Shown: piece after piece, positions 31,031-58,952 of the stretch | How the letters are laid out: the number at the start of each line of letters is the position of its first letter | Numbering within the stretch: position 1 is the stretch's first letter | NCBI GenBank assembly: GCA_019915015.1 | Contig: JAHBBC010000019.1 | Span: 434,001-498,000 of the forward strand | DNA: 64,000 nucleotides | Origin: Auriscalpium vulgare | Lineage: Eukaryota; Basidiomycota; Agaricomycetes; Russulales; Auriscalpiaceae | Direction: 5' to 3' | The notes under the pieces: model-generated | Seen by the model: only the letters and a program-made list of their open reading frames with translations | Told to the model about the DNA's origin: nothing | Databases searched by the model: none | Translations under genes and position numbers: made by a program

Positions 31031-31209
31031 TAGGCCCTAGGGCTGCCGGACGGGCTTGTCGGGTCAGGCACGAAGTGCCGCGTGAGGGACTTCAGTTCCG
31101 TGGGTCACCCCAGCAACTGTGAGCCCTTTCTTAGTAGTACTATGTACCTACACAGTAGGGATGGGGGTAGTGCATTTATGAGCGTGTAGTACATCCTGTA
31201 CCTATGATA

Positions 31210-32022: not shown

Positions 32023-32081
32023 ACACACAATCCCGCCACGTAGATACCAAGGTCTATATGCACACAACATAGGCGCAGCAG

Positions 32082-36180: not shown

Positions 36181-36726
36181 GGTAATGGGCGGGAGATGCG
36201 GAGGAGGATTGGATACGGTATGATAGAATAGGACAGTGACAGTAAGGAGCCCGTTGATACGCAGAGTCAAGCGCACGTGCAACGGGCGGCTCCGGGCCGA
36301 CGACTAGCTCTGGGGGTGCAACATCGTCGTTTTAATGCTAGAAATCTCTCCAGCACACTCTGCAAAGAGAATATAAGACTACCTGAAGTGGCCTCATGAG
36401 CTGCGCTCGATGATGAATGCTGAAATAAAGGGTCACACTGTCCGTCACTCCATGAGCGTATCATATCGTATCTGGCACTGTCCGTCACTCCGTGACTTAG
36501 ACCTCATAACGATGCAGAGAGGGAGAGGGATAGTATTACACCAAAGGTATGAGAACTGAATGTCAGAAGGAAGATAGCATCAATACGCTGCGCATAAGCA
36601 GGAGGGCTATCTATACAATGTTGGTTACCATCCCGCCGAATGATCTCAAAGGAACCGTGCCACGGCACAGTCAAATGTCCGTGACAAAGAGGACAACAAC
36701 CATGTGATTTGATGGACGCGAGACCG

Positions 36727-37518
36727 TCAGAAGCCGTAGAGCACGCGGAAGTGCCTCTTCTTGACACTGCAAATGGGACACAGTATCAGGGAAGATGACC
36801 TCAGGCTTGCGCAGGCGACACGGTAACGAGGCTTACCGACATCCTGTGAAGATAAGGGTGCGCGAATTTGCTGTCCAATCGACAGCGGCCGGCCCCTGAC
36901 TCCATAGCTCAATCTGTTGATGGAGTCCAGCAATAATCCGGCGGTGTGTATGCATGCGGCGAGTCTGAGCCAGTGGAACATCTATCGGGGACGACAGGTG
37001 CTCCCTCGCAGCTGCCAGATGCTCGTCCAAGAGCTGCTGGGCATGGGCAAGATAGAGGTTTCGATATTCCATGTCGGTGCGACGCAGTTCTCCAAATTGC
37101 TCGCAGGACTCTCGAACCTCTTGCTCATCCAAATGCATGAGGAGCGTGCGCTCTGGGTCGCGCATACGATTCGCATAAGCGAGAGTGTCTGTATAACAAC
37201 TGGATAGCAGTGCACTGGTTGGCTAGGCGGCGAGCGATACGTGTTGCAGCCAGACGCACCTCTCTGGATGCATTGCTTTCTCCTTCTCCTCTCGCACTCT
37301 CTTAGCACGGGCATATTTCGAGATCCTCCGGCTGCCGACCGCACGCTTGGCAGCTACATGTTTGCGCTGGTAATTCCGTCTATCGTCCGCGTGGCTGAAG
37401 GCAATCAGTCGACTGGGCGAAGCAGCTCATGCACACGTACTAACCCTGAGTAATAGGTGGGCTTATCCCCCTGCGGCAGGTCCGGTATGGCCAAGGCTGC
37501 AGACGTGGAGGTTGGCAT
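36727..37518 (-). CDS. KDZ-linked accessory protein, element A copy
   Basis: Not recognised. Four exons start at ATG 37518 (PTSTSAALAIPDLPQGDKPTYYSG). They continue with a basic block (RRNYQRKHVAAKRAVGSRRISKYARAKRVREEKEK), then coiled-coil (DPERTLLMHLDEQEVRESCEQF; RNLYLAHAQQLLDEHLAAAREHLSSPIDV), and end LIFTGCR joined to VKKRHFRVLYGF. The same exon layout and sequence landmarks occur in element B at 51615-52419, again directly upstream of a KDZ transposase on the same strand. Linkage in both elements implies a role in transposition, perhaps end binding through the basic block. Confidence 0.65.
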
Positions 37519-39726
37519 CTGAGGACAGAGGATGGATGTGGAGACGATAATGTGGTTCGGTGCAAGGCATGTGCAGATAGCCCAGATGACGCGTCTACAC
37601 ACTTACAGCATCCCCATATATGCACGGCTCAGGCTTGCACTTGTTACAATCCACCCGGTGATACGCTATCACCCGGGACGGACCCTAGCGGGGCGTGCGG
37701 CGAGTGCCTCACAGGACAACAACCACCAACACTGCCTCCTATACGTCGCGATCCAGACCGGGTGACTTGACTTGCAGAGTGGGAAGGTGTTCGTGTCGCT
37801 GTCGCGCTTCGCGCCCTCCCGCGGTCGTGCGGGGCCACCTCCTACCGCCTAAACACCAAACTAAACACTCACCTGCCTGGGGATGCCCTCTACGGGATCC
37901 GCCTCCGAGTGCTTCGCACCCGTGTGCGAAGCGTCCGCCTATGGGCCGTCGCGCCCCCTCATCAGGAAATGAGGGTAACGATATAGTTCCGAGCCTTTCC
38001 TGTAGCACCTGTAGGACTGCATAGACTATATATCTGGCCTCGATCTATGTAGTACGCACATGCATATCGTCTGATAGCCGACCGGCTTGGCAGCTACGGA
38101 ATCTATCCCGAAGTGTCAGCTCGACCGGCCCTAAGCCAGCGCGTGACTGCCAGCGAAGCATGTTCAACTTTCCTCCGTCTGTCCTCCGTCGTCCCTTCCT
38201 CTGTCCTCATCATCCCCTCGTCCTCCCTTCTCGTTTGCCCATATCTCTGTCCTTCTCGCAGGCGTATCAACTCCTTTCTATGGGACCTTTTCAATGAAAT
38301 GACCCCGGAAATGAGATGAACATTGAATAAGGTGTGTCTAATCTCCTTTGGCGATTGCCAGCGTGCTTATTCGTGGGCTCAGCATGGTTGCACGACGAGG
38401 ACGCAGTAGCCTCTGCGCATACAGCCTGGCAGGTTTGTCTTCTCGCCAGCATTGTTCCAGCACAGCATGCTCTCGCCTCGCACCCACATCGGCGCTCTTG
38501 CCCTCGGCGCCTCGCCAGCCATGAAGTCCGCTGCCGACCTTCACCTCCACCTGACAGGCCGCAGCTCATGCATGATATACAAGGTCCGCTCAGTCTATCT
38601 TGTGATCAGAGTCTCACCATCCCGAACCGTTGCTCAATGCCAACTCGATGCATTGCGCACAAGTGTGCCCCTGTTTGATATGTTTTTTTCTTGTCCCCAG
38701 GAAGTGCCAGAACACTCAGCGCAAGCATACGCTGTCCTCCGCGCACACGCTCAGAGCTGGGCAGTGAGCGATTTATATTCGTCTGCGCGGGCTGCCCGCA
38801 ACGCTCAGGTGCGCGTGAAGAACGGATATGGTTCTATGTACTCGTAGCATACTCGTAGCAGACGCAGCTGTCACGAAATATATTTGATTCTCTGCGATGT
38901 CTGCAGCTGTGTGCGCCGTGCGGTAGAGCGTGGGCTGTGGCCCAAGCTTGCTAACTTACATCCCATCTATGCTGAACTATGTAGAAACAGTGGAATCTTC
39001 CACGCGCTATGCTGCACTATAAAGTTGGGGGGTGTCAACAGCGCTATGGCAACTATATTGGCTACAGAGTGCTATATAGTGATTGACCGGTTTCCTGATG
39101 CTCTTGCCTGTCCGCCTGCCTACCTGTTCCCACATCGGTGGGGTCCTGCCTTCCTAAGTCTGCCTAGTAATGCACGTCGTTGCATTAGCCTCCTAGAGCT
39201 TCGCGATCGTTTGCGAAGCTGCCGCCGTGGGTCGTCGTGACCCTTCCTCCTGTCTGCCGTCCTTCCTGTACCCTCGCGGTGGGGCTCCTATCTTCCTGAT
39301 GCTGGTAGCGCCTCAGGCTACAGTTTCTGTGAGGTAAAGGGTGTGGGTGGCTGACGCCGCCCACAAGTTGATTGGGTTGCTACGTCTCGCGCAGCTCCTT
39401 AAGTAGTGTCGCTACCTACATCGCTAAGCCCTCCCGATCTAGCCCGTTCCGGTGATCCGTTCCGTCGCCAGTCCCGGTTGCTCCTGGGTCGCCGGACCAC
39501 GTTCCCATCACCCACGCTCCCGCGACCCTGCACCTCGCATGCTGCTTCCCCGTCTCGCAACGTCTCGCTACACGCTTGCCCGCGGCCTGAACCTATCATT
39601 TCTCCCCCCAACTGAAACTGCAACTGTCCCCAGTTGCCAGGAACCGCGTGGAAACGTCATATAAGGGCTCGCAACCTTTCGCAATAACATCGCTTGTAGC
39701 ATCCCTTTGCCGATTTCTGTCCCGCG
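37519..39726. other. Gene-poor flank with hairpins
   Basis: About 2.2 kb with no supported gene. Two related hairpins, GTGCTTCGCAC...GTGCGAAGC near 37908-37931 and GAGCTTCGC...GCGAAGCT near 39198-39222, are each followed by GGG(C/T)CGTCG. A palindrome CCCGGTGATA..TATCACCCGGG lies near 37654-37677. An Inr/TATA promoter region (TATAA at 39660) precedes the interrupted gene at 39727. A short motif shared with the gypsy relic lies at 39599-39637. Confidence 0.45.
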
Positions 39727-39831
39727 ATGTCCCTCCCCGCCGCTTCTGCCACCGCTGACAACCTTGACCTCCTCAGCCTGTTGACGCAGGCCCCCTTCGC
39801 TGGTTTTGACCTTGGGGATGCCGAACGGGAG
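39727..39831 (+). pseudogene. 5' exon of a gene interrupted by KDZ element B
   Basis: ATG 39727 opens SLPAASATADNLDLLSLLTQAPFAGFDLGDAERE, then the frame meets a stop two codons into the insertion. The last ten bases (CGAACGGGAG) are repeated at 57688, where the frame resumes as EREVTLRLEWVDKVNQLV. A TATAA at 39660-39664, 67 bp upstream, is the likely promoter. The downstream part is listed at 57688-58952. Confidence 0.6.
39822..39831 (+). repeat. Target-site duplication of KDZ element B, left copy
   Basis: CGAACGGGAG, repeated exactly at 57688-57697. The repeats lie at the two broken edges of one reading frame. Confidence 0.7.
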
Positions 39832-39915
39832 CCGTAGGCCCTAGTTTATTCACTAACTCCCTACAACAGCAGGCCACCCTATGTACTTGTTGCAGACACG
39901 TAGTGATGTTAATAC

Positions 39916-40192
39916 ACTATAGTGAATCCATCGTGTACTATAGTACTCCCACAGTACAGGGAGGTCAAGGTAGCGGTAAATTACAATGCACTATAGTGTA
40001 TCCTCGAGTGTTTACTATAGTTGATATGTCCGACGCGAAATAGCGGTAACTTTGCAAAGCACTATAGTGTATCCTCGAGTGTTTACTGTAGTTGAATGTC
40101 CCATGCGTACTACAGTCGAATGTCTCCCCTGTATACTATGGTTTATCTGTGCCAAGTACTACAGTATGATCTCACCACCTATGCACTGTAGT
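39916..40192. repeat. ACTATAGT palindrome array, left end of KDZ element B
   Basis: About nine octamers of the ACTATAGT/ACTACAGT/ACTGTAGT class in 280 bp. They include two copies of a longer unit, CACTATAGTGTATCCTCGAG, followed by TGTTTACT(A/G)TAGTTG. The array lies within the left terminal 360 bp of the element. Confidence 0.8.
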
Positions 40193-40497
40193 GCATCTGG
40201 ATTGCGCTATTCACCCTGGCGCCGATTGTTTCTATTATTTTCTTTGATTCAGTCATAATGTAGGTACACAGGACAACAACGGCTACTACGAGCTACGCTA
40301 CGGTCAAATACATCATAGATCTCACAGACAGAGCACGGAGGCGTCAAACCAACACGATACGGGCGCGGGACACGGCAAGAATACAGAATAAATTGTACAG
40401 AAATCTTCAGAAATCTTCGGGCGTGCGTGGTCGACTGGCGCGCTGAGTCCGCCGGCGTGCATGATGCACCTAAACCTTCACCCTATTGCCCTCGTTG

Positions 40498-41113
40498 TTA
40501 GTCCACGCCACCGGCCAAGAAAGCGGCCGCGTACCTCTTTTGAGCGGGCCCTGCGGCGTCACCATCAACCACTCGCTTTTCTCCATGGGGCAGGCTTTTG
40601 ACGATCTGCTGGAGCACCCAGTCGATGTCCTCGAGGGCCGAGAGGAGCTCGTTCTTGTCCCTGTCAACCCTGGCCATCTTCGTCCACCACAGGATACACA
40701 TCATGACGAGCGCGAACCCGTTCTTACCACCCCTGCGCAGCGCCGTCCACTCCTCGTCGTTGTGTTCCTCACGTGGCAGCGGCCACGTTTGCTTGTGTGG
40801 GTCGACCCTCCATGGGGGCTGCATAGCCAGCCACCAGGCACGCCACTGCCTCCCATACTTCTGTACGTTGCCGATTGCGGGTATTTGATCCAGCTTCCGG
40901 CCGCCCTTCATCCAGGTGTGGACCTCCCCCGGCCGCACGCGCCTGTCCACGATGAGCCAGTGCGCAGGGTCCTGTACCATTTCATGTCAGCTTCGGTGCC
41001 CATCCGACATTCAATGCACTGACCTTGGGATCCACGTCGCCGATGTAAGCTTCGATCAAGAGCCAATTCTTCAAGGCCCTACCCCACTCAGGCTCGTCGA
41101 TGAGACATGTTGA
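40498..41113 (-). pseudogene. C-terminal part of a split conserved basidiomycete gene
   Basis: The minus strand encodes LIDEPEWGRALKNWLLIEAYIGDVDPK, an intron, then DPAHWLIVDRRVRPGEVHTW, GRQWRAWWLAMQPPWR, GKNGFALVMMCILWWTKMA and LSALEDIDWVLQQIV, ending GVD at 40498. This tryptophan-rich block is the usual C-terminus of a family of unknown function widespread in Agaricomycetes, here recalled by pattern. No start codon precedes it. The matching N-terminal part with PKWIQDTYALLHG lies 5 kb away on the same strand at 46.1-48.6 kb, with AT-rich satellite between them. It is best read as one gene split by insertion. Confidence 0.6.
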
Positions 41114-41149
41114 AGAGAGCCGTTGCTACGCACGGCAGGCGATTCCATC

Positions 41150-44100
41150 CAAGCATAGTTAATAATGTTATGGTGAGTATATGATGTATTTGAAAATGTG
41201 ACTATAAATACCAGCAACAAAGTAAAGATGCCTTGGGAATGCAAAATTCTCAGTCTTCCCTCAATTATTTGTTCAGTTGTACATGAGGAAACAAAGAGGG
41301 AGCTATGGTTTATATATACTTACAAGTGATGTCTATTCATTTGGAGTTCAACAATTTTAGAGTTTGTTAATTGCAGAAGGAGTGGTGAAGGAAAGCATTT
41401 GTAGCAAACATGTGGCTTATAAGGATGGATGATATACTGACCTAAATCTACATGAACAATGATCTGAGGTCAAATTTACTACATATGGCGTTAGTTCAGA
41501 AGCCAATAGAGCAGTCAATATTGAATTGTTAATGTATATGGCACCCAGGCCATGAACAAACACAAGCAACAATATTGAATCTTTAATCTATGCTACACTC
41601 GAAAGTAATCAAACCCTAAGCCTACTGAGGCGAGCCACTTCTTGAATTCACATAATACCACCAGGACAGATTTTTAATTCAAAGCACAGCGAAATGCACT
41701 CAGCCCCATTTAAATTTACATCAAACCACCAGGCTAGAATTTCAGTTCAGATCACACCGGAATGCACTCAGCCCCTGTTTAAATTCACATCGCACCACCG
41801 GGCTGGATTTTTAATTCAGATCACACCAAAATGCACTCAGCCCCTGTTTTAATTCACATCATGCCACCGGGCTGAATATTTAATTCAAAGCACAACAAAA
41901 TGCACTCAGCCATGTTGATATTCATATCAGACGAGTAGGGTGGATTTTTAATTCAGATCATACCAAAATGCACTCAGCCCCTGTTTTAATTCACATCATG
42001 CCACCGGGCTGAATATTTAATTCAAAGCACAACAAAATGCACTCAGCCATGTTGATATTCATATCAGACGACCAGGGTGGATTTTGATTCAGATCACACC
42101 AAAATGCACTCAGCCCCTGTTTTAATTCACATAATCCCACTGGGCTGAATATTTAATTCAAAGCACAACAAAATGCACTCAGCCATGTTGATATTCATAT
42201 CAGACGAGTAGGGTGGATTTTTAATTCAGATCATACCAAAATACGCTCAGCCCCTGTTTTAATTCACATCATGCCAATGGGCTGAATATTTAATTCAAAG
42301 CACAACAAAATGCACAAAGCCCCTATTTTCATTCACATCATGCCACTGGGCTGAATATTTCATTCAAAGCACATCAAAATGCACTCAGCCCCATTTTAAT
42401 TTACATCAAACCACCAGGCTGGATTTGGATCACACCGGAATACACCCAGCCCCTGTTTAATTCACATCACACCACCGGGCTGGATTTTTAATTCAGATCA
42501 CACCAAAATGCACTCAGCCCCTGTTTTAATTCACATAATCCCACTGGGCTGAATATTTAATTCAAAGCACAACAAAATGCACTCAGCCATGTTGATATTC
42601 ATATCAGACAAGTAGGGTGGATTTTTAATTCAGATCATACCAAAATGCACTCAGCCCCTGTTTTAATTCACATCATGCCACCGGGCTAGATATTTAATTC
42701 AAAGCACAACAAAATGCACTCAGCCATGTTGATATTCATATCAGACGACCAGGGTGGATTTTTGATTCAGATCACACCAAAATGCACTCAGCCCCTTTTT
42801 TAATTCACATCATGCCACCAGGCTGAATATTTAATTCAGATCACACCAAAATGCACTCAGCCCCTGTTTTAATTCACATCATGCCACCGGGCTGAATATT
42901 TAATTCAAAGCACAACAAAATGCACTCAGCCATGTTGATATTCATATCAGACGACCAGGGTGGATTTTTAATTCAGATCATACCAAAATGCACTCAGCCA
43001 TGTTGATATTCATATCAGACGACCAGGGTGGATTTTGATTCAGATCACACCAAAATGCACTCAGCCCCTGTTTTAATTCACATAATCCCACTGGGCTGAA
43101 TATTTAATTCAAAGCACAACAAAATGCACTCAGCCATGTTGATATTCATATCAGACAAGTAGGGTGGATTTTTAATTCAGATCATACCAAAATGCACTCA
43201 GCCCCTGTTTTAATTCACATCATGCCACCGGGCTAGATATTTAATTCAAAGCACAACAAAATGCACTCAGCCATGTTGATATTCATATCAGACGACCAGG
43301 GTGGATTTTTGATTCAGATCACACCAAAATGCACTCAGCCCCTTTTTTAATTCACATCATGCCACCAGGCTGAATATTGAATTCAGATCATACCAAAATG
43401 CACTCAGCCCCTGTTTTAATTCACATCATGCCACCGGGCTAGATATTTAATTCAAAGCACAACAAAATGCACTCAGCCATGTTGATATTCATATCAGACG
43501 ACCAGGGTGGATTTTTGATTCAGATCACACCAAAATGCACTCAGCCCCTTTTTTAATTCACATCATGCCACCAGGCTGAATATTTAATTCAAAGCATAAC
43601 AAAATGCACAAAGCCCCTGTTTTCATTCACATCATGCCACTGGGCTGATCAAAGCACACCAAAATGCACTCAGCCCCATTGAAATTTACATCAAACCACC
43701 AGGCTGGATTTTCAGTTCAGATCCCACCAGAATGCACCCAGCCCCTGTTTAAATTCACATCAAACCACCGGGCTGGATTTTTAATTCAGATCACACCAAA
43801 ATACGCTCAGCCCCTGTTTTAATTCACATCATGCCAATGGGCTGAATATTTAATTCAAAGCACAACAAAATGCACAAAGCCCCTATTTTCATTCACATCA
43901 TGCCACTGGGCTGAATATTTCATTCAAAGCACATCAAAATGCACTCAGCCCCATTTTAATTTACATCAAACCACCAGGCTGGATTCGGATCACACCGGAA
44001 TACACCCAGCCCCTGTTTAATTCACATCACACCACCGGGCTGGATTTTTAATTCAGATCACACCAAAATGCACTCAGCCCCTGTTTTAATTCACATCATG

Positions 44101-45880
44101 CCACCAGGCTGAATATTTAATTCAGATCACACCAAAATGCACTCAGCCCCTGTTTTAATTCACATCATGCCACCGGGCTGAATATTTAATTCAAAGCACA
44201 ACAAAATGCACTCAGCCATGTTGATATTCATATCAGACGACCAGGGTGGATTTTGATTCAGATCACACCAAAATGCACTCAGCCCCTGTTTCAATTCACA
44301 TAATCCCACTGGGCTGAATATTTAATTCAAAGCACAACAAAATGCACTCAGCCATGTTGATATTCATATCAGACGAGTAGGGTGGATTTTTAATTCAGAT
44401 CATACCAAAATGCACTCAGCCCCTGTTTTAATTCACATCATGCCACCGGGCTGAATATTTAATTCAAAGCACAACAAAATGCACTCAGCCATGTTGATAT
44501 TCATATCAGACGAGTAGGGTGGATTTTTAATTCAGATCATACCAAAATGCACTCAGCCCCTGTTTTAATTCACATCATGCCACCGGGCTAGATATTTAAT
44601 TCAAAGCACAACAAAATGCACTCAGCCATGTTGATATTCATATCAGACGACCAGGGTGGATTTTTGATTCAGATCACACCAAAATGCACTCAGCCCCTTT
44701 TTTAATTCACATCATGCCACCAGGCTGAATATTGAATTCAGATCACACCAAAATGCACTCAGCCCCTGTTTTAATTCACATCATGCCACCGGGCTAGATA
44801 TTTAATTCAAAGCACAACAAATGCACTCAGCCCTCTTGATATTCATATCACACCAAACCAGAATGCACTCAGCCCCTGTTTTAATTAATATCACACCACC
44901 GGGCTGAATATTTCATTCAGATCACACTGAAATGCACTCAGCCCTGTTTAAATTCACATCAGATGACCAGGGTGGATTTTTAATTCAGCTCACATAGAAA
45001 TGCACTCAGCCCTGTTGAAATCTGCATCACACCACTTGGATGGATTTTTAATTGAGATCACAAAAAAATGCACTCAGCCTTGTATAAATTCACATCATGC
45101 CACACCAGAATGCTCTCAGCCCCTGTATTAATTCACATTATGCCACCAGGCTGGATATTTAATTTGGATCACACCTAAATGCACTCAGCTCCTGTTTTAA
45201 TCTATATCACACCACCAGGCTGGATTCTTAATCCATATCACCAAAATGCTCCCAGCTCCTATTTTGTGTTATATCATACCACATTGCTGATTTTTAATTT
45301 TGGTTATACCAAAATGCACTCAGCCTCTGTTTGGATTTATATTAATTTATATCACACCGCAAGGTTGAATATTTGTTTCAGATCACCCTTCAGCCCCTGT
45401 TTGGATTCATATCATACAACAAGGTTCAATGTTTGATTCATATGCCACTAAAATGTTCTCAGTCTCAGCGCCTTCCTAGATTTATATTGACTATCTATGT
45501 TGACTATTCAATCAAATTCAAACCGGACTACACTTGGCCCCTGTTTCAATATATATTGCACCAGAGCCTCAATCTTTAATTTATATTGTCAGCCCCGCAG
45601 AGAGCAGAGGTGACAATACTGAATTCTTAATTCAAAAGCATAGTCTCAATTTCATAAAGCAACACCTCACAGTGTGCTCATCCAAATATCATGAAAGCAA
45701 GAGATTATGTGACAAGGAATGCACAATCTTGCAACTAATGTTGATATGTTCACAATGTCATCACAATAATTTCAATGATTAAAACAGCAAGCGATCTTTT
45801 TAGTATTTAAAAAACATGAAGATAACAGCCTGAACATCATAAACTAACTCCTCACGATCTGCTCATTCAAATTTCATGAA
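41150..45880. repeat. AT-rich satellite block with dimeric higher-order units
   Basis: Base composition changes abruptly to AT-rich. From about 41650 to 45450, roughly 55 monomers of 68-69 bp occur in tandem. Two monomer types share AAAATGCACTCAGCC and TTAATTCA: type 1 reads CCCTGTTTTAATTCACATC then GCCACCGGGCTGA, and type 2 reads ATGTTGATATTCATATCAGA then CGACCAGGGTGGA. They often alternate, forming dimers of about 137 bp, and larger blocks of several monomers are duplicated almost exactly. The edges (41150-41650 and 45450-45880) are AT-rich but not clearly repetitive. No genes are present. Confidence 0.9.
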
Positions 45881-48648
45881 ACAACCACCATTCGAAAGCT
45901 GTTCCTCGTACCTTCCCAACGGTACAAAGCAATCGCAAATCCAACTCGTTTCCACGAAGATATAAGAGTAAAACTGTCGACCGGAAAAACTCGGGTGTGT
46001 GCCCGGGTGAAACCGTAAACTGTACTTTACTTCGGACTCCGACGGCATATTTTTCTGCTCGAAAGAACTGATTCCAAATATGGAATCAGAACCGTGTAGC
46101 AAGGCGTACGTGTCCTGGATCCATTTGGGTTGCTCGACTGCCATGATGTTGCCGCCGGTGTCGTCCGTGGTGACGTCAGCTGGCTTGATGGTTGCGGGAG
46201 CTGGAACGACGGAGGTGACGGTAGCTGGGACAGCGGCGCCGGCGAGAGCAGCCTCGGCGGTGCTTGCTGCAGCTGGGACGGCGTCGCTGGAGGGAGCAGC
46301 CTCGGCGGCGTTGGCGGCAGCTGGCTTGGCGGTGCTGACGTCAGCGGGCTCGGCGCTGGCTGGGACGGCGGGAGCTGGGTCGGCGGCGGTGCTGGCGGGA
46401 GCTGGGACGGCGGCGGTGCTGGCGGTAGCTGGGACAGCAGCGCCGGCGGGAGGAGCCTCGGCGGTGCTTGCTGCAGCTGGGACGGCGTCGCTGGCGGGAG
46501 CAGGCTCGGCGGCGTTGGCGGCAGCTGGCTTGGCGGTGCTGACGTCAGCGGGCTCGGCGCTGGCTGGGACGGCGGGAGCTGGGTCGGCGGCGGTGCTGGC
46601 GGGGGCTGGGACGGCGGCGGTGCTGGCGGTAGCTGGGACAGCAGCGCCGGCGGGAGGAGCCTCGGCGGTGCTTGCTGCAGCTGGGACGGCGTCGCTGGCG
46701 GGAGCAGGCTCGGCGGCGTTGGCGGCAGCTGGCTTGGCGGTGCTGACGTCAGCGGGCTCGGCGCTGGCTGGGACGGCGGGAGCTGGGTCGGCGGCGGTGC
46801 TGGCGGGAGCTGGGACGGCGGCGGTGCTGGCGGTAGCTGGGACAGCAGCGCCGGTGGGAGGAGCCTCGGCGGTGCTTGCTGCAGCTGGGACGGCGGCGTT
46901 GGCGGGAGCAGGCTCGGGAACGGTGTCGAGGCTGGTGGGCTCGTCGTCTTCTTCGTCGTCCTCAATCTCCATGCGGATAGCTTCATCCAGTTCATCATCA
47001 GCCACCGAGGGCATCCTGCAATACAACAGGTCAGCTAGGCAGGTAAACCACAACGTGCAGGACTTACGTTCCGGCCTTACGAGGCCGCAGGCTCGCCTTC
47101 CGCTCCTGGGACACCTCCACCTGTTTCCTCGCCCTAGCCTGCTTTGGCGGCGCGTTGTCCTGGGCGGGTGCGAAGCCATTGACCAGGCGGCTTCCAGCGT
47201 TGAGCAGGTCAAGCGCCTTGATCTGCGCGAGGTTCCACGCGACACGCGCTTCGCGATCCCGCTCGTATTGCGTGCCTTTCTTGCGCGGCGGTGTGTTCTC
47301 CTCGCGCGGCGGTGTGTTCTCCTCGTGCGGCGGCGTGTTATCCTCGCACGGCGGTATGTTCTCCTTTCCGCCGCGGGAAGGCGGCTCTACGGCAGTCTGC
47401 GCTGGCTTTGAGGCAGGTTGCGGAGCGGGCTTTGGTCCCAACGGAGGCGCGGGCGTCTGCGTGGCGCCGTTGGCGATGTTGGCGGTGGAGAGAACCACCC
47501 CAGCGCTCTCTTCGGTCGGTGCAGAAGTACCTGGGAGGGCACGGGCTTGACAGACGTCGGGGGCTGCATGAAGAACTTCGTTAGTTATCTCCGTGCATTT
47601 CGACAGCTCAGAGCACGTACGAAAGAGTTTCTGGAGGTACCCCACAAAGGGCTTCTCCACGTTCGCTTTGTAGCCAGGGTACGAGTCGCTGAATGTGCCA
47701 CCCTCGCCGGTAGGATCGTGGAAAGAGTGAACACTGGAAGACGGTGGGTGAACACGAGAAGACGACGCGAGGAGGGTAGACGCACGAATAAGACCGGAGT
47801 ATGCCGCCTTCGGCTGGCACCGGGCCGCCGAAAAGAATCGTGGCTGTCCAGCCTGTCTGGCGCAGGATTTGCCTCACCGCCGTCAGCGCAGTGCGCGGGA
47901 GCATTTCGATGGCCCTGCGGTATGCTCAGGTGAGTGCCGAGTATGTACTGGTTTCACTCAAGGCAACTCACGCTTGATAATCTTGCAGCCGCGCGGTCGT
48001 CGGATCTTTCTCCACAGGCTCGCCGACACCTTTCTCAAATGCGCGCGCGACTTCTGCACGGACCTCTTCGGACTCCTTTTCAAGCTCTTCGCGGCAGCGC
48101 TGGTTGCGAAAGGCCATTGCATCCTTTTCCGTCACGCCCGGCGTCGTCTCTTTGTACTCCTTCCACGCCGGCTCGACGATGGGTTGCAGCTTCGACGTCC
48201 AGTAGAGCGTCTGGTACGTTTGATATGGCGCGAGGCGGCGCGATCCTTTCCCGGTGAGGTCGAGGACCTTCTTCCCGCCATGCTTACCTCCGCCTCCCGT
48301 CGGTCGACTCTTATTGTTGTACCATTGCTTCAGCCGCTGTGTATTAGTCAGCATGACGACCTGACGATGCGTAGGCGTGACACGCACCGTACGGACGACA
48401 ACGCCGGGCTCCCCGGACGCCTTGATATTCCAGTCCGGAGAGTCAGTCTCGGGCCATCCAGCAAGCCAATCGGCGAAGATAACCGGCCAGAATTCGACGG
48501 TATTTCCCTGCGCCTGATGCTCGCGGAACGCGGGCAAGTGGGCCATCAAGAAGGCAAGCTGCTCAGGTGTCGTCCAGTTTTTTTCATTGACTGTTTCCGA
48601 TGGCGAGGGCGAGCGGGCGCGAGCGGGAGTCTTTTTGGCACGAGGCAT
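45863..48648 (-). pseudogene. N-terminal part of the split conserved gene, with minisatellite and frame break
   Basis: Starts at ATG 48648 (PRAKKTPARARSPSPSE). Exon 1 carries WTTPEQLAFLMAHLPAFREHQ and QRLKQWYNNKSR, a DNA-binding-like basic helical region. The next exon has AVRQILRQTGWTATILFGGP, then a frame shift near 47850 before SDSYPGYKANVEKPFVGYLQKLF. A Pro/Glu-rich region follows (repeated EENTPPR). The last exon has acidic residues and three near-identical 68-aa Ala/Pro/Ser repeats (204 bp each, 46240-46900). Homology ends at PKWIQDTYALLHG near 46080; the remaining open frame to 45863 is unrelated sequence. The Trp-rich C-terminus sits at 40498-41113 beyond the satellite. Function unknown. 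Confidence 0.6.
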
Positions 48649-48964
48649 GGCTGCGAGGGCGACAGGAGAGCGGGGGCAAGTCGCGCGGGTACGAAGTTCA
48701 CTACACCCCAATATCCTTATCACCAGCTGACCACTGAACGATCTGCACAGAAGTCATGTCCATACGACGCGGCCGCTCTGATCCCGCCACGTCGCCATAC
48801 GGAAGTCCGCCGAGCCCTCAAATTATCTAACTGGAGGATCCCGAAGCCCCGCTGGTATAAGAGACGGGCGCCCGCCGCTCTGGTGAGCTCGGCGCCTTGT
48901 TCTTTCCCCCCATCGCCCAACTCACTGTCTTTGTCCGCCTCCAGTTCCCCCAGCCCCGTCTGCA

Positions 48965-50637
48965 ATGTCTCAAGGTAAACGCGCCGCTATCTGGATGGCG
49001 ATGGCGAACTAACGGCCCTGCGACATAGCTACCCCCAACCCGACTCCCCCTGGCGGCCCTCCCGGCCTCACTCCCACCGAATTTCCCTCACGCGGCGGCA
49101 AGAGTCGCCGGTATGCTTTCTATGCGGTTGTCATCGGCGCCCAAGTCGGTGTTTTCAGAGAATGGTGAGTCGTTCGTCGGCGGTGGCGTGCGTATGTGTT
49201 GACCGTGCGCCTCAGGTTAATCGCAGCGCCTCTCGTGGTCGGCTTCCCCAACGCTCAGTACAGTGGCTTCCACCACTTCAACGACGCAGCCTCTGTGTAC
49301 ATGGCTGCTATGGCCGGGCTCGCCAACCCTCCCCCCGAGCATCCCCAGTCGCTTGTGTCGTATCTCACGCCGAACGCCGCCGTGCCGGACGAGGATCCTG
49401 TGCCTCCCGAGGACCACGTTGCCCCTGCCGCTCCTCCGGCTTCCCCGACTCCTTCCCACGCCGCTCCTCATGGCGCTGGGGCTTCTATTCAGTCGGCAGC
49501 CGCTGCTCCTGTGACGACCCCGCTTGTCGCTCCTCTGACCGCCCTGCCCGTCGCTGCCCCAACCATCCCCTCTGTTGCTCCTCTGGCCGCCTCGCCTGCC
49601 TATGCCTCCAGCGCGCGCGCAAGTGGCACTCGTCCCAGTCCCCTCGCACTCGCCAGCACCGATGCTGACCTCGAGCAGCTCGAGGCCGTCATGCATTCGC
49701 TCAACGTTCGCGACATGATGGACTTCTTGGATGGGCGCCGTGTCCCCGGCACCAACGCTCAGTCCGAGGAGCCTGCGGCTGTGCTGACGGTCTCGGTGTC
49801 CTCGAACCCCAACCCTCGCCCCGGAGAAGATCGATACCGCGTCCTCGTGCGCACCAACCTCTCTGTGAGCCGCCACAGCATGAGTCACCGTGCCATACTG
49901 AATTCTTTGTAGGACGAGGCGGCGGTCCTCCCTTGCCCCTCTGACGATGAGGCCGAAGACAACGCCAGGGGAGCATTTTCCACCGCTCCTTCGTCCCCTG
50001 CGCAGCCGGAGCGTCGCGACCGCTCGGTGTCACCCTCGCCCCGCGGTGGCACTGACGCCTCCATCGTTGACGTCTCGCCATCTCCCTCCCTTTCCTCGGT
50101 GACGATGTCGAGCATAGCTCCTGCCGCGCAGCTCGACGACATTGTCGTGTTGGACCGGGCGATCACCCAGTTGGACCCGTCGCTCCGCGCTTGCCGCCGT
50201 CGCTGCCCATGCGCCAACTGCCGGCGCCGCCAGCAGTTTGATGAAGCGGTGGAGGCGGCCGCTACGCCTTCCATCTTGCCTGCCGCTCCCGTCCCTGGCC
50301 CCAGCAACATCATCCCGCGGTTTCCCCTCGTTGACCACGTCCTCTTGCCGGCTCCCGTCCTCCCGCCGGCTCCCGTCCACCCGCCGGCTCCCGTCCTCCC
50401 GCCGGCTCCCGTCCGCGCAGACGGCGACGATTGGTACGCTGTGGTCCGTGGCCATGTGCACGGTGTCTTCCGTGGCCCTCTGTGCGTGCATCTATTTCCC
50501 ATGCCTGTCATCAGCTGATTTTGTTTGACAGGCTTCAAGTCCGCGCGTTCGTTGTCGGCTTCGATGGCGCGTTCTTCCGAGGGTTCCAGACACGATCCGC
50601 CGCCTTGGCGTGGTTCATTGAACACGATAGCGACTGA
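48965..50637 (+). CDS. Protein with two RNase H1 N-terminal (viroplasmin-like) domains
   Basis: Five exons (48965-48974, 49029-49164, 49216-49864, 49913-50481, 50532-50637) give 489 aa. Domain 1 (about residues 30-75) reads FYAVVIGAQVGVFREW then VGFPNAQYSGFHHFNDA. Domain 2 at the C-terminus reads WYAVVRGHVHGVFRG then AFVVGFDGAFFRGFQTRSAALAWF. Both match the small fold that binds RNA/DNA hybrids in RNase H1. No RNase H catalytic domain is present. The linker is Pro/Ala/Ser-rich with a cysteine cluster (CRRRCPCANCRRR) and PAPV repeats. It is divergent from the split gene, 316 bp away, and probably shares a promoter region with it. It is likely cargo of element B. Confidence 0.78.
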
Positions 50638-51614
50638 TGCCCCGGTTGGCCCGGTGACGCCCGCACAATTTCTTCAGCTCCAATCATCCCCGCCTCGCCA
50701 TCTCCCTTTCTTGACGCCGTGCGGCGACCTCGTCATCCTGTCCGTGTAATTATTTATTTTCTGTGCGCTCTGCTCCCTTTCCTGTTCCTCATGGCTCGCT
50801 TTCATGTTTGCTCCCTTATCTATCGTGTTCGCCGACTCATTTACCTTTTACTTATTGCGTCCACACCATGTCTTGATTGTGCCTTGTTGCATGCTGCCGT
50901 CGTCTTGTCCTTTGCTGTCGTTGTGTCATTCGTGTTGCGTCGTTGCGTCTTGTCGATTTGTGTTGCGTAGTCCTCGCGGTTCTGGGGGTGGGCGTCGACT
51001 TTGTGGTGCCGTTGGGTATTGTGGTTGCTGCGTAGGTCCGTAGTGGTCGTAGTCATGTTCATGTTATAGTTGCGTAGACGCAATATACTTAGCCCATGCG
51101 GGCATGTTTGGCTGAAAACAAGGCATCTGCGAGAGACATATGGAATACATGAGGGCAAAACTTGGACATTGAGGGTGGAAGACACTGCCGTAACATGCAT
51201 ACAAGCATGCGCTCAGCAAATTCAACCCCAAAAACATCTCGTTCAGTGTGCATACATTGCAATTCGTCGTAATACGCTACAGAGAAATTATACGCAGCAG
51301 AGGACTGATGCCCCCACATTTTGGACAAGTTTCCGCCAGAGACAGTGAGTGGAGCGACAGGCAAGCGCAAAGGGCCAAGCAGCTTGGGCAAGGAAACCAC
51401 AAAAACATCCTGTGGACCGTGCTCGTAATGACACTCGCCATATCAAACACCAGTAATATTGCACAGAGCAGAAAAACGATGCCCCCACATTCCTACCACG
51501 TTTCTGCTAGAATGCCTCAGGTGAGCAAGTGTAAGACGAGCACAGATGGCTGGGTGGTGCGAGATCTCAGGTGCTGCCGCGTCAAGCCCTGTGACATCTT
51601 TGCGAGCGATACTC
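50638..51614. other. Non-coding stretch with a repeated motif
   Basis: About 1 kb between the RNase H-domain gene and the KDZ accessory gene. A motif GATGCCCCCACATT followed by AC..GTTTC(T/C)GC occurs near 51305 and 51480, each preceded by ACAGAG. No supported gene. The 3' UTR of the upstream gene and the promoter of the downstream gene must lie here. Confidence 0.45.
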
Positions 51615-52419
51615 ATGATGGTTTCCACTCGCAGTTCGACATCTCTCCCTCGCACTTCAAGCCCCGGCTCTCAGTCTTCTTACTACCAAAGGTACGTAGT
51701 TGAAGTGCATTCAGCACAGCACTGACTCACAAATCTCCCTGACACGTACGCAGGAACAAGGCGCAGCGTCAAGCGTATCAGCGCAGCTACGCTGCCGTCG
51801 CCAGAGCGGTCGGGTCCCGCAAGCTATCCAAGGCGGCGCGAGAGAAGAAGAGAGGCGACATGAGTGGTGGTAACGGAAAGTGTCCGCTGGCCGTCGAGCG
51901 GTACGTCTGTGTGCGAGGCTTGCAGCGAGGAGAGGCTGATGCTTGGTCTACAGCCCCAATCCCAACTCGCTCTGCTACACAAACCTTTCGCGCGATCCCG
52001 AGCGTTCGTTTTTCATGAGGGTTGACGAGGAAACTATGGCGGAACAGATCGACCGTCTGGAACACGACGCTTGGTTGAGCCCCAACGAAGACTTCGTGAA
52101 CAGCCACATCGCCCAGCTGCGGAGCCTCTTGGAAGAGCAGCTGGAGCTGGCGCGGGAGCGTCTCAGAGTGCCCATTGATGTTCGGCGTGCGCAAAAGGTA
52201 GCGATTCACGGGTACCGTTGCATCATCGCCGGCTTGCACCAGGAGCTGGAGCTGTACACTGCAAGCGGCGGCAAAATCGACTCTATCAACCCATCGCCAA
52301 AATCCTTGATCTTGAATGGATGCCGGTGAGTACTCATCATCTGCTTGGGGCTCTGCGCTGTGCTGAACGAACGGACCAGGGTCAAGAAGACAGCCTTCCG
52401 TGAGCTGTACGGATTCTGA
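51615..52419 (+). CDS. KDZ-linked accessory protein, element B copy
   Basis: Four exons (51615-51691, 51754-51900, 51954-52325, 52380-52419) give 211 aa. The layout equals the element A copy: a Ser/Thr-rich N-terminus ending SSYYQ, a basic block RQAYQRSYAAVARAVGSRKLSKAAREKKRG, PNPNSLCYTNLSRDPERSFFMRVDEE, coiled-coil IAQLRSLLEEQLELARERLRVPIDV, RCIIAGLHQELELY, then LILNGCR joined to VKKTAFRELYGF. Introns fall at the same places and phases. It lies 430 bp upstream of the transposase on the same strand. Conservation in both elements, with intact frames in each, argues for a required transposition factor. No known domain is recognised. Confidence 0.75.
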
Positions 52420-52850
52420 ATGGCGCTTATCATCGAGCAATCCATGAGGCGGGCCATCCTCATTTTCATGTAGATAACCCTCTCCCCTTGCCCGCCTTTG
52501 TTACAATCCTTCGCTCTTTGCCATTGGTATTCACTGTGCAGTGTAATTGAGTATGCGCCGCGCTACTTCTGGTTCCTACGCCCGCGCTGTGACCTTGCTA
52601 TACCTCCCGCATCGCATATAGTTATGACAGTATGTATAGATTTGTCTTGTATACTTGACACCTCACCGCAGTGCGTGCTGTGGACTGGGGGCTCAAACGC
52701 TCACAGGCAGCCTGCTCCGAGCTCGCGCTCACGTGCTCACAGAACGTGGGAAGTCAACGCGTTAAGCGCGAAAAATACGTAGGCGCATACTAGTCGCTCG
52801 CTGCCCACTTCAGAGTCCAAGGTCCAAGCGTTCAACGGTCAAGCCCATCT

Positions 52851-55800
52851 ATGACTCGCAAACGACGAGGGTACCGCACGCGCGATGCCATCGTCGTACC
52901 GATGGATATCGATGGCAGCTCCACCGTTCCCGCAGCGCGGCACACCATTGTCGCTGTCCGTGCACGCAACAAGCCGTCTCAATCAACATCTCACCACGCT
53001 ATTTCTGCTACTCCCTCGCTACCTGCAGCAGCCGTTGAAACAGCCAATGCTGATCCGCCGGCCGTCGAAGACGAGAACACCACAGAATATACGCACGGCG
53101 AGGTCTACATTGAAGACATGCTCGAAGACATGGGCCCCGCCGAAAGCGACGCAGACGGGGTGGTGCTCATCGCAAGAAGAATCGGGTCTGTGCTCTTTTC
53201 ATCGCGGTGTTTGACTTCTGACACGGATCGCACAGGTCGCTCTGCTCAAAGAGTGGCTGCCCTTGCGCGACACATACGTCGACGAACTCATTCGGCACGA
53301 CGGCAGGGGCGACTATATCGGGGCAGCGCACTGCAGCGAGTGCGGGATCGCAACGCGCACCAGTCGATGCATCAATTGCTTGGGCTCACTCCTCTCTGCG
53401 ACGGTTGCCTCTGTGCGGCGCACACCACGAACCCTCTGCATCGCGTCCAGGTGTGCTAGATTTTCATCCTCGACTGCTGCTTACTTACCCCAATTTTTTA
53501 GCGGTGGAATGACACTTTCTTCGAGAAGTACTCGCTCGCAGAAGCCGGACTCTGCATCCAGCTGGGCCACGACAACCGGAGCTGTCCCAATCCCCGCGGT
53601 AGTACGACAAATCTCACCGTCATCGACACCAGCGGCGTCCACAAAATCGTGGTGCGCTTTTGCGATTGCGGGAACGTGGACACCGCCAGATCCTTTGTGC
53701 AATGCCTTCGCGCGCGCTGGTGGCCGCGACGGTGAAGCGCCCTCGGACAGTCGTGACGTTCCGAACGTGCAAGCTCTTCCACGCTCTGACATTGCAGGGC
53801 AAAATGAACGCATACGACTTTTGGCATGGCCTCTCGCGCGTCACGGACGGCAGCGGCGCCTTGCAGCGCCCAAGGTATGTTCACTACATGTGCCCTCGCA
53901 TGCGATTGATGCTTATCGTGTCTCTCAGGACCAATACAAAGATTTCATCCGAATCATGCGTTGCTTCCGGCACGTTCGCATGGCAAAACGAGGCGGCCGC
54001 GGTCACGATCCAGGCGGTCTCGAAGCTACGGATGTTGGGGAGCTGGTAGTTGAATGCCCCGCGTGTCCTCAACCCGGTCGGAACATGCCAGACGGTTGGG
54101 AGCTTGCTCCCGCAGGCGAGCAGTACGTGATTCAGCTGATTAATGCACCACAAGCTCATGGTGAATTTCAAGGTGGAAGTACGCTGTCATGCTCGCAATC
54201 GACGCAAACTTCAAACTTAAGCTCAAGAACCGCGGCCTCGCAGATGTGTCGCTCTCGTCGGGATGGGCGTACTTTGTGGAGAACGATCCCTATAAAGAGC
54301 ACGTGGCCAAATATATTGATCAGGAGGAGGTACGTTGTATTTCTTTGTCTCTCTTTCTCGACGTTTGCTGATATGTATCGCTCAGATGAAATGCTGTGAC
54401 TCTTCTTTCGCCGCACGCGACCACGCAACATGCCGACCCACAAGCGGTTCGCCATCAACGGTGTGGGAGCCGTGATCTGCGCGCGGCACTGCTTTCATCG
54501 TAAGAGTGGAATCGTTGACCTTCAGCGTGGCGAACGGTATGTTGCTCTTTTGCGGGCGATGTTCCAGGGTCACTGATCCGTTCACATCTCAGGTACTGCA
54601 ACATGGATTACGCTGTCCTCTCGACGATCGCGCGCACGGCATCTGGCATCAAGGTCATCGTCCTCTCATACGATATCGCATGCCAGTTCTCGAAGAACTT
54701 CCTGCTTCGGATGCAGCAATATCCAGAGGGCCTCCGCATCAACATCGATGGCGTCACATTAATCTTTGTCGTGCCGAAGTTCCATTTGCTCGCCCACGGT
54801 CAATCCTGCCAAGTCGTGTTCAACCTGAACTACACCGAGGGCGTGGGGCGGACTTGTGGGGAGGGTATAGAGAGTGGCTGGGCTGACACCAACGGCTCGG
54901 CACTGAGCACCCGCGAAATGTCGCCTGAGGGCCGTCATGAAGGCCTGGACGACTTTTTCGGGGCAATCAATTGGCGCAAGACTATTTCGCTTGGTGCGTG
55001 TGTTCCTATGTTAGTCCGGGCTTATTAATAACCACGGTGTTTTCAGGGAAACTCCTTGCACGCTCGCTCAAGGTGGCCGTTGTGGCGCTCGCTGAACAGA
55101 AGGCTGTGCTCGAGGACAGCAACCTCACCATCCCACTCGCCATCCGTGAACGGTGGGAGGGCATGGTCTTGGCGTGGGATGCGGACCACTCTCAGCCAAA
55201 CCCGTACGACGAACCGGAAGCAGGTATGTATGCCCTCAATCTCGTCGTAGACATCTCATTGATTGAAAATCTCAGTGACCACGCTCGCTGATGTACGTCT
55301 TGAACTGGCCCTCGAAGAATCCGCGGAGGCCAATGCGGGTGTCATGTCTCTCCATGAGACGTCGGCCAGCGTCTTCCTCGCTGTGTGGCTTGAGCTCGAG
55401 GACTTGCAGTGCGTACGCAATTCATTTTTGATTGACTGTCTGGCTGACGAAGCCACGTAGGTACGCCATCCGCATGCAAGCCAAGGACGATGAGAGCAAG
55501 ACGCCAGCGGGCAAAGTCGCCCTCCAAGAGAAGCGCAACGCATTGCAACATCGCATACGATCGTGGCAAGTGATCCAGAAGATTTACATGCCAGCTGTCG
55601 CAGCGCTTCTGGCGGCTGCCCTGTCCGCAGAGCCGTCCGAGTTGACGCCCCCTACTGTCGACTCAGTGATGGCCGCATCGTCTCACTCCACATCCGCCAT
55701 CCCCGCCGCCTCGCCCGTCGGACCCATTGCGGCCAATTTGACACACGCCGTCACGGTTACAATTCCATCCACGACTGCGCCGGTCACTGACGTGGCACCG

Positions 55801-56853
55801 CCTGCGCCCAGGCGTTCAAGACGAGGGCGGCGAGCTGCCGCCTTGGCTGCAGCGGCGGACGCAGGTGGCACCAAAATTGAAGACGAACCACTGTATCTTC
55901 CATCGTCGATACCGGAGGACATGTGGGAGCAGGGGTTCTCGCTGGGGTTGATCATCAAGTACCGGCGACTTCGAGTCGGCCAAGCCGAGGACGCTCTCCA
56001 CAACATCCGCCGGCTGCTGCGCCTACGCACAGGCCTCATCCATTACAAGCACGTTTTCGTGGACGGGCCTGGTCAGAACTCCAACACTCGCGCGCGCAAT
56101 CAAATAGCGAGGCTGCAAATGCGGATCAAGAGATATGTTGTGCAGTATCGCACGGCGCGTGCAGCGCTGCTTGTGGTTTGGCCAGACGGGCCGTGGATGG
56201 CTCGACTGCAGGAGCTCTTGGACGAGCATGTCCGAGCGCCGCGTGAGAACGAGGAGGGGCCAGGAGAAGGGCATCGGGCGCTCTCATGGATCTGGCGAGC
56301 CCTTCCTCACGAAGCGCGTGACGTCCCGGGGCACCAAGATGACATGACTGAGGACGAGGTCCATGAAGGTGAGACAAGTCGCTTGTATTGTTTTGACTGT
56401 TCGCTGACGTCTGTTGCAGGTTTGCGTGTTGACTGGGTGCGTGCGCGGGCTCGCGTGCGCCGTTGGGACGAAGAAGTCCGACATTTGCAGGAGGAAATGC
56501 CGCGATCCGTCGCGTTTCTTCATTACAAGTCCAACTGGTGGTCCGCGCAAGCCAACCTTCGCTCCGATGTCCCTGCGGACATTCGTGACGGCCTCCGGGC
56601 ATACGCTGCCCGCCACGCCGCCATGTACATGAAAATTGCAGGTGGTTTCCAGGAGATCTGGACGGCTGTGCTCTCGGCACACAACCTGCCGGTCCCGTGG
56701 GCTGAAGCCAGTCCATTGAGTGCAGCCGACGTAGTTACTCCGCCGGCTACTGACAACGCGCAAGTCGATGGTGCGGACGACAGCGATAGCGAGTCAGAGG
56801 CAACAGAGGGTTCTGTCGTGCACAGCTCCGATGACGAAGATGTGCTTGATTGA
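52851..56853 (+). pseudogene. KDZ transposase B, two frame breaks
   Basis: ATG 52851 opens TRKRRGYRTRDA. The zinc region shows HCSECGIATRTSRCINC then CDGCLCAAHTTNPLHRVQ, but a CT-dinucleotide expansion near 53395 breaks the frame between them. The core has LFHALTLQGKMNAYDFWHGLSRVTDGSG, Asp in LAIDANFKLKLK, one base missing near 54432, NGVGAVICARHCF, Asp in VLSYDIACQF, and EGVGRTCGEGIESGWADTN. The long C-terminal region (55443-56853) is intact: EDEPLYLPSSIPEDMWEQGF, HYKHVFVDGPGQNSNTRARNQI and an acidic-Ser tail. About ten GT-AG introns. KDZ enzymes are RNase H-fold cut-and-paste transposases. It is about two-thirds similar by eye to element A. Confidence 0.77.
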
Positions 56854-57006
56854 TAGTAGCTGCATAGTGTACTATGTATTTGGGGTCGTAACTTTGTAAT
56901 TGTGGGCTGTAAATTTTAGCTGCATGTCTGGTTCCCATTTGCGAGGGAGGAAAGACAACATATGTCCACAGAGCTGACTTAGAGAAATTTTTGTGCCGAG
57001 GATTTC

Positions 57007-57673
57007 ACTATAGTGATGTGGGAATGGACTTAGAGATTTCAGCCGTGCGCCTTGAACACTTTAGTCGTAGAGTCAAATTCACTTAGCAATTATCTACTAT
57101 AGTCAATTGACCGAAAATGCGGTTTTCTGGGGTACATCGGAAGATATGTACTATAGTATTGGTTTCTACTGTAGTGAATACACATTCACTATAGTCGATT
57201 CACTGAAAACGCGGTTTTCTGGAGGACATCACAAGATATGTACTATAGTATGGGTTTTCTACAGTAGTGAATACACATTCACTATAGTCGATTCACTGAA
57301 AACGCGGTTTTCTGGGGTACATCGCAAGATATGTACTATAGTATGGGTTTTCTACTGTAGTGAATACACATTCACTATAGTTGATTCACTGAAAACACGG
57401 TTTTCTGGGGTACATCGCAAGATATTTACTATAGTATGGGCTTTCTACTGTAGTGAATACACATTCACTATAGTTGATTCACTGAAAACGTGGTTTTCCA
57501 GGGTATATCACAGAATATGCACTGTAGTATTGGATTCCCAAGGCTCATTTCACTATAGTATTGCCTACATGTACTATAGTAATGCTCAGTACCTCCGAGT
57601 ACCTCATGTACTACACATACTGCTATCAGTACAACACTAGCCCTGCTATTGTAGTACCTTAGTTAACTATAGT
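57007..57673. repeat. ACTATAGT palindrome array, right end of KDZ element B
   Basis: Begins about 150 bp after the transposase stop and ends 14 bp before the element terminus. A 93-bp unit repeats nearly five times (about 57085-57535). Each unit holds three octamers (ACTATAGT, ACTGTAGT, ACTATAGT) and the palindrome GAAAACGCGGTTTTC. The spacer sequence differs from the 82-bp unit of element A, although the octamer is the same. The 177-aa open frame here is a by-product of the repeat. Confidence 0.87.
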
Positions 57674-57687
57674 CCTCCCCACAGTTG

Positions 57688-57697
57688 CGAACGGGAG
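57688..57697 (+). repeat. Target-site duplication of KDZ element B, right copy
   Basis: CGAACGGGAG, identical to 39822-39831. The base before it is the end of the element (..CACAGTTG). Confidence 0.7.
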
Positions 57698-58952
57698 GTT
57701 ACGCTACGTCTAGAGTGGGTCGACAAAGTCAACCAGCTTGTGGTGCGTGCTGGTCCCCGACCGCGTCTTTTCCCGGCTTGACTGATGATGAACTCAATTC
57801 CAGACCCTTTCTTCAATCCGCGCGTCCCGCAGCCTGCGCGATCTTGCCTTCCACTTCACCTCGCCGATCCTCGAGTTCATGGTGAAGCTCGTTCCAGCGT
57901 CCGCCCCTCTTGCCCAGCGCTTCGAGGGCACCCTCATGCGTACCCTCCCCTACTCAGCGCGCGCCAGCCCGCGGTGGTCCCAGATGTTCTCCCCTTTCCC
58001 CGCCGACGCTACCGATGCGGAACTCCACGTCTTGATCACCATCGTGGAGGCTGGGCTCTGGACCGTGTACTACTTCGGGGACGGTTCTGTCGAATCCTAC
58101 CTCCATGAAATCACGGAGTTGCATGGCGCCTTCCCCACCCTGCGTCCTCAGGGCATGCAGAGTTGGCTCCTACGTGATTTCGACGCCCGGGCCGTCCATG
58201 GGATGTTTGTTATTACCCGCGAAGACACCGTGTGCCGAGCCCTGGCCTACCACGTCCGTGGTGCCTCCAGCTCCCCCCCCTCTTGTGCCTACGCGGGCCG
58301 CCTCACCACGGGCGTGGTGTGCTACCTGTTGGGAGGCCTTGCGGAGGACTCGGTGGATATGTTACGGGACTTTACCACCATTTCTGAGGCCTTCGACACG
58401 TTTCGCGATATTTGGGCGGACTGGCCACTGGTGTTGGATCGCCTCGACATGCGCTGGGCCGCGATGGCAACCTGTATGGGCGGGATGCTGGACGCATGTG
58501 GATTAGGATCCCGCCTCCTCGCCAACCTCCAGCCCGCAGACTTCCTGGTCCAGGATATCAGCGTGGCCTCGATTCGCGCCATCGAGCGGATCAGTTCTGC
58601 GCGCCTCTCGCACATCTCCTCCTCCCGCTCCACGCCTCGCTTCTCCCGCGCCAGACAGGCCAGGCTCGCGTCCCCTCCTCGCGCCGTCCCCGTCCGTCAT
58701 CATCGCCGCCTCCCTTCCGCTGCCCGGCGCCAACGTCGCACCCCTCGCCAGCCCTTCTTCTCTCCTCCCTTCCCGGTACCTCCGGTTGCTCCTGCCGCTC
58801 CCTTCGTGTCACTCGCCGCTGTTGCGCCCCCCGCGCCGGACCATGCCCCTGGCTCTGCCTCGCCCACCGTCGCCGCCCCCTCCTTCCAGGATGTCGGCAC
58901 GCCTCCGGCTACTGCGGCGGCTGGTCCCGCTGCCCCCGAGCCCGTCGCTTAG
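57688..58952 (+). pseudogene. 3' part of the gene interrupted by KDZ element B
   Basis: Starts with the second copy of CGAACGGGAG, continues EVTLRLEWVDKVNQLV, then an intron (57743-57803) with donor GTGCGT and acceptor CCAG, and TLSSIRASRSLRDLAFHFTSPILEFMVKLVPASAPL. The body reads PADATDAELHVLITIVEAGLWTVYYFGDGSVESYL and MRWAAMATCMGGMLDACGLGSRL. It ends in an Ala/Pro-rich tail at TAG 58950-58952; AATAAA follows near 59166. The family is not recognised. The promoter and first 35 codons are at 39727-39831. Without the insertion the gene would be open throughout. Confidence 0.6.

Follow-up and report, generated by a model that had tools for sequence, protein, structure and literature searches.

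Element B of Auriscalpium vulgare, very probably a complete multi-gene KDZ DNA transposon inserted into an LTR retrotransposon

KDZ element B occupies positions 39829-57687 (plus strand) of a 64,000-nucleotide stretch of the basidiomycete Auriscalpium vulgare (assembly GCA_019915015.1, contig JAHBBC010000019.1, positions 434,001 to 498,000 of the forward strand), here called the window. It is very probably a complete multi-gene DNA transposon that entered, in a single insertion, a long terminal repeat (LTR) retrotransposon splitting an older KDZ element, A, and that was later modified by insertion of a repeat, X, and by a duplication. The element now measures 17,859 bp, or 12,871 bp without X, and its limits are set by paralogous empty sites and by termini common to five other elements. 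All searches were made within this one assembly, whose contigs are given as C-numbers (the window lies on C19), and the empty sites are paralogous sites of the same genome.

The 10-mer CGAACGGGAG occurs at 39822 and 57688, as in a preliminary description of this DNA, and at no third site on either strand of the window. When the flanks 39500-39831 and 57698-58400 are joined, all seven paralogous target copies that were fetched align to them (1029-1038 bp, 97.0-98.5%), which agrees with the earlier statement that a reading frame resumes in phase across the block. With 39731-39900 as query there were 59 candidates, 40 of them scored, including the window itself, and the 39 other scored copies all stop matching at 39831. 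These copies supply paralogous empty sites, where the preliminary description had proposed to look for an empty allele in sister strains or species. Since the flanks align to the paralogs with a single join, the block is one insertion, and 39829-57687 arrived as one unit with its KDZ transposase. That an RNase H1-domain gene and a second conserved gene moved with it, also proposed earlier, is supported both by the empty sites and by a complete collinear relative on C4 (see below).

The target site duplication (TSD) of B is most likely 7 bp, and not 10 bp as first described. Its copies, CGAACGG, lie at 39822-39828 and 57688-57694, as placed by the paralog alignments and by a comparison of the ends of six elements. 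The apparent 10 bp arises because the next three host bases, GAG, equal the first three bases of the element, an identity that is read as chance. The left terminus, GAGCCGTAGG... (39829-39858, plus strand), forms an imperfect inverted repeat with the right terminus, which reads inward CAACTGTGGGG... (57658-57687, minus strand). C27:83057-83793 is a truncated copy of B's right end (95-97%); it stops exactly at this terminus, at C27:83793, and has different flanks. The inward sequence CAACTGTG is shared by B's right end and the end of element A on its transposase side, at 31114. An inverted 15-mer, 29 and 33 bp from the ends (with the left end counted from 39832), matches at 13 of 15 positions, and none of 500 shuffles gave as good a match.

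Palindromes of the form ACT[AG][CT]AGT are arrayed inside both ends, with nine sites in the left array (39916-40192, the first of them 87 bp from the end) and 17 in the right array (57007-57673), part of which lies inside a 93-bp tandem repeat. Exact ACTATAGT sites are confined almost entirely to such positions, 24 of the 25 in the window lying within three KDZ termini. The arrays, the paired 15-mer and the boundary shared with A thus stand as the preliminary description gave them.

Both ends were located in six elements, namely B, A and one each on C4, C13, C17 and C22, the last four picked for closeness and a full set of gene blocks rather than at random. Their left ends read GAGCCGTRGG (four elements) or GGGC(C/T)GTGGG (two), and in their right ends the inward sequence is CAACTGTRRG or CAACACTGGGG. 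Each of the six is flanked by 7-bp repeats, exact in five and with one mismatch in A, against 0 of 310 shifted controls at up to one mismatch. Measured from the 7-bp boundary, the first left palindrome is 87-89 bp from the end in every element; a right palindrome lies 106-107 bp from the end in five of the six, and B and C13 also have nearer sites. B without X and the C4, C13, C17 and C22 elements are 11,962-12,871 bp long, and A is 15,073 bp without its retroelement.

The transposase gene of B (52794-56853, plus strand) has several exons, with a CxC2 domain in 53603-54046 ahead of the KDZ core in 54519-55025. The core matches KDZ (PF18758) with E 8e-36, its 124 bits being well above the curated cut-off of 26.6, and CxC2 is found with E 2e-12 in B and E 5e-34 in its element A partner, which confirms the KDZ identity assigned earlier. 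A small conserved open reading frame (ORF) at 51940-52326 (plus strand), which follows the RNase H1-domain gene and precedes the transposase, is 45% identical to its C4 counterpart (E 1e-20) and is also present in A. It is possibly the 5' part of the transposase gene.

The RNase H1 N-terminal domain gene (49013-50640, plus strand; start codon not located) has proposed introns at 49165-49215, 49865-49912 and 50482-50531. A hand-spliced model matches PF01693 in two stretches (E 5e-17), and the unspliced pieces give E 8e-4, 0.03 and 0.34, all below cut-off. The match of the spliced model makes the RNase H1 assignment stronger, and the gene is present in the block as was claimed.

The second accessory gene is severed by X. 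Its C-terminal block, g1 (40501-41104, minus strand), has homologs near KDZ genes, and its N-terminal part and Ala/Pro-rich middle lie at 46093-48648 (minus strand), with the g2 block at 47971-48648. Their spacing and strand make it probable that g2 and g1 belong to a single gene, which would have introns and a middle rich in Ala and Pro, and the sequence on the two sides of X matches the intact C4 gene in one frame (35% over 65 amino acids, E 8e-12). Neither block has a Pfam match, a NCBIfam search of five proteins returned no family, and a comparison of g2 alone to PDB sequences gave no match (best E 0.18). Single-sequence structure prediction of the g2 block had a mean pLDDT of 41.6.

The C4 relative (C4:1151522-1164365) is a collinear 12.8-kb element in which both termini and every gene block are present, and has 66-76% DNA identity to B over matches of at least 85 bp. 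A composite of two elements was considered for B and rejected, given this collinearity over the full length.

The coding frames of the accessory genes look constrained. Between B and C4 the ratio of nonsynonymous to synonymous substitution (dN/dS) is 0.24 for g1, 0.21 for g2, 0.23 and 0.37 for the RNase H1-domain exons and 0.21 for the small ORF; in the transposase it is 0.09 for the core and 0.24 and 0.18 for later pieces, the 0.18 being that of the tail. Between B and A, the transposase pieces give 0.09-0.46 and the RNase H1-domain exons 0.22 and 0.06 (the latter over 20 codons), two pieces being saturated. As a control, all seven blocks have a corresponding ratio of proportions of differences (pN/pS) of 0.20-0.59 when read in the coding frame; with the frame shifted, in either way, the values are 0.98-1.73.

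The same gene set recurs beside KDZ transposases elsewhere in the genome. Protein-level searches of the whole assembly covered g1, g2, the RNase H1-domain gene and the KDZ domain, and the small ORF was compared to C4 and A only. They gave 63 loci for g1, 43 for g2 (72 matches), 13 for the RNase H1-domain gene (23 matches, merged by hand) and 108 for the KDZ model (150 of 168 matches used); the g2 and RNase H1-domain loci include B and its tandem copy. A listed KDZ locus lies within 20 kb of 34 of the 43 g2 loci (33 divergent) and 46 of the 63 g1 loci (41 divergent). A divergent KDZ gene is 3.8-6.7 kb away at 29 g2 loci, where 0.13 would be expected, and a non-divergent one at a single locus. 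At 37 of the 43, g1 follows downstream on the same strand at 1.4-2.31 kb, and 25 have both KDZ and g1 in these ranges, which were chosen after the distances had been seen. Nearly all RNase H1-domain loci (12 of 13) have a divergent g2 at 0.26-2.6 kb. Looked at from the transposase, 41 of the 108 KDZ loci have g2 within 20 kb. By their order and recurrence, the accessory genes are conserved components of a subset of KDZ elements, not passengers. A related left end with g1 is also present, in two inverted copies, at C4:592001-632000, flanked by large near-identical inverted repeats.

Repeat X (copy X1, 41105-46092, 4,988 bp) contains a 69-bp minisatellite and is unclassified, with a shared AC only and no clear duplication at its ends. 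Its 5' end occurs at 17 other places at 99-100% and in two further C19 copies. Leaving aside the tandem copy, its 3' end is present at 27 others (95-100%). The further C19 copies lie at 502494-505175 and 527580-532293; the minisatellite varies in length and there is a palindrome near the 3' end. A Helitron was considered for X. The lack of a clear duplication and the 3' palindrome fit, but the termini do not match the TC...CTRR pattern of Helitrons, and this identity was rejected. X is a later, separate repeat that splits the accessory gene, and the 18-kb size of B is due to its insertion (4,988 of 17,859 bp).

The stretch from X1 to X3, a copy further downstream in the retroelement, is present twice in tandem (24.6 kb, 99.86%). 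For X3, eight of nine target copies examined have the empty site. X2 is bordered on its left by the sequence that lies left of X3, and on its right by the sequence that lies right of X1. These junctions are consistent with an unequal exchange between X1 and X3 as the source of the tandem duplication, which spans about 25-27 kb from window position 41101 to C19:532293 and is bounded by X. The second tandem copy lacks the left end of B, and frame differences in its CxC2 exon may be real or assembly errors.

The target of B is an LTR retrotransposon (minus strand) that extends from 37659 to the end of the window at 64000 and continues past it. Its left LTR (37659-39598) matches C19:533029-533825 at 99.7-99.8% and contains a 1.1-kb insertion (37961-39100) that the right LTR lacks. 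Pol is on the minus strand, and a Pfam scan of the minus-strand pieces to the right of B found an aspartyl protease and a reverse transcriptase RNase H domain, with an integrase core below cut-off and no reverse transcriptase core domain listed. The ORF interrupted by B (39729-39831 and 57698-58949) is on the plus strand, opposing pol and close to one LTR, and its main exon (57792-58949) has no Pfam match. It is part of the multicopy retroelement. The preliminary description was right that a frame is interrupted and rejoins across B; the frame belongs to a multicopy retrotransposon, and a host gene as target was rejected because the frame lies within that retroelement (40 matches scored).

Element A is an older KDZ element split by this retrotransposon. 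Its transposase-side part lies at 31114-37658 (minus strand) and its far end at C19:542353, with the duplications ACCCCAG and ACCCCGG. On C19 its KDZ gene is at 468071, its RNase H1-domain gene at 534.6-535.8 kb, g2 at 538.4 kb and g1 at 540.9 kb. Since the ends and genes of A lie on both sides of the retroelement, the retroelement is nested in A; it contains B in its turn, and B contains X. The nesting thus runs from KDZ element A to the LTR retroelement, KDZ element B and X, followed by the tandem duplication of about 25 kb between X copies, and this nest of four elements gives a clear sequence of events.

The transposase, with its RNase H-like KDZ core and CxC2 cluster, would most likely recognize the imperfect repeats, some 30 bp long, at the two termini, and most likely also the ACTATAGT arrays that start at fixed distances from the ends (87-89 bp on the left and mostly 106-107 bp on the right). 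It would then excise the element and insert it at a target cut with a 7-bp stagger. The accessory gene and the RNase H1-domain gene may help transposition or its control, by analogy with some plant DNA transposons, in which accessory proteins do so. The accessory gene was later split by X, and the right part of B and its flank would have been duplicated in tandem by an exchange between copies of X. A bolder proposal is that this KDZ clade is an obligate multi-protein system, in which the transposase, the g2-g1 protein and the RNase H1-domain protein act on phased ACTATAGT arrays with a 7-bp TSD; this is a tentative idea and rather unlikely as it stands. RNase H1 N-terminal domains are of the type that binds RNA:DNA hybrids. 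Should such a protein be required, movement of the element may be linked to R-loops or to transcription, either at its ends or at the target.

The preliminary description took B for a giant cargo-bearing element, a KDZ transposon that had captured unrelated host genes with logic like that of Starships. Several non-transposase genes do lie between its ends and moved together, and its total length is 17.9 kb. Against this, KDZ transposases elsewhere in the genome have these genes next to them, with order and orientation unchanged; the collinear C4 element has them too, and they look constrained. Nearly 5 kb (4,988 bp) is a later nested repeat, the five elements that include B without X are 12.0-12.9 kb, and protein searches that took in part of its ORFs brought to light no gene peculiar to B. 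Capture of host genes is thus highly improbable, and the description of B as Starship-like cargo is set aside. The alternative of a true 10-bp duplication would treat the GAG next to other left ends as a target preference, and has in its favor the exact 10-mer at both junctions of B. It is less probable still, because the right flanks of the C4, C17 and C22 elements lack GAG and their exact match ends at 7 bp, and the first palindrome keeps its distance from the 7-bp boundary in all six. The least probable account is an assembly artefact or segmental rearrangement with no insertion at all. The right part of the block is tandemly repeated just downstream at 99.86%, a structure that is prone to misassembly, but the single-join empty sites in all seven paralogs, the matching duplications and the termini common to independent elements speak against it.

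Several observations weigh against B as a complete KDZ transposon with a conserved gene set. No transposition was observed, and no further integrated copy of B complete at both ends was found. The placing of the left boundary depends on four elements starting with GAG and two starting with GGG. The flanking repeat matches over 8 bp in C13 and 10 bp in B, so that 7 is the length common to all elements and not the match in each, and for two right ends on C27 the 35 kb examined contain no duplication partner. There is no g2 locus within 20 kb of 67 of the 108 KDZ loci, which indicates that the module marks a KDZ subset, and nine of the 43 g2 loci have no KDZ within 20 kb among the 150 of 168 matches listed. 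No listed KDZ lies within 100 kb of the two C4 left ends (near 601 and 626 kb). N-terminal transposase pieces with overlapping frames have dN/dS of 0.40 and 0.53 between B and C4, with one piece saturated, and these ratios, like the others, come from blocks aligned by tblastn with synonymous sites near saturation.

Reading B as a complete KDZ transposon defines, for a KDZ clade, the exact ends, a 7-bp TSD and a terminal architecture that is conserved. It also reveals a conserved set of accessory genes, which would otherwise be taken for captured cargo. It is a warning, too, not to call nested or family-specific genes cargo. The role of the accessory proteins in KDZ movement is now directly testable.

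B resembles the KDZ (Kyakuja-Dileera-Zisupton) elements of basidiomycetes (PF18758) in its KDZ core, its CxC2 cluster and its TSD-flanked insertion. KDZ elements can carry extra genes, such as TET/JBP and HMG-domain protein genes. Unlike these, the set in B consists of the g2-g1 protein, which matches no family in Pfam, and a protein in which the RNase H1 N-terminal domain occurs twice; TET/JBP had no match among those ORFs that were scanned with Pfam. Fish Zisupton makes an 8-bp duplication, whereas the clade of B has 7 bp. The plant elements En/Spm (CACTA) and MuDR likewise combine a transposase with accessory genes and subterminal arrays of short motifs, but their transposase families are unrelated by name and their termini differ; the likeness is one of design only. 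The Starships of ascomycetes are, like B, large multi-gene DNA elements. They use a tyrosine recombinase and have variable cargo, and among the ORFs scanned with Pfam no such captain was found. B instead has a KDZ transposase, a 7-bp TSD and, in place of variable captured genes, a gene set that is common to the family and constrained across its elements.

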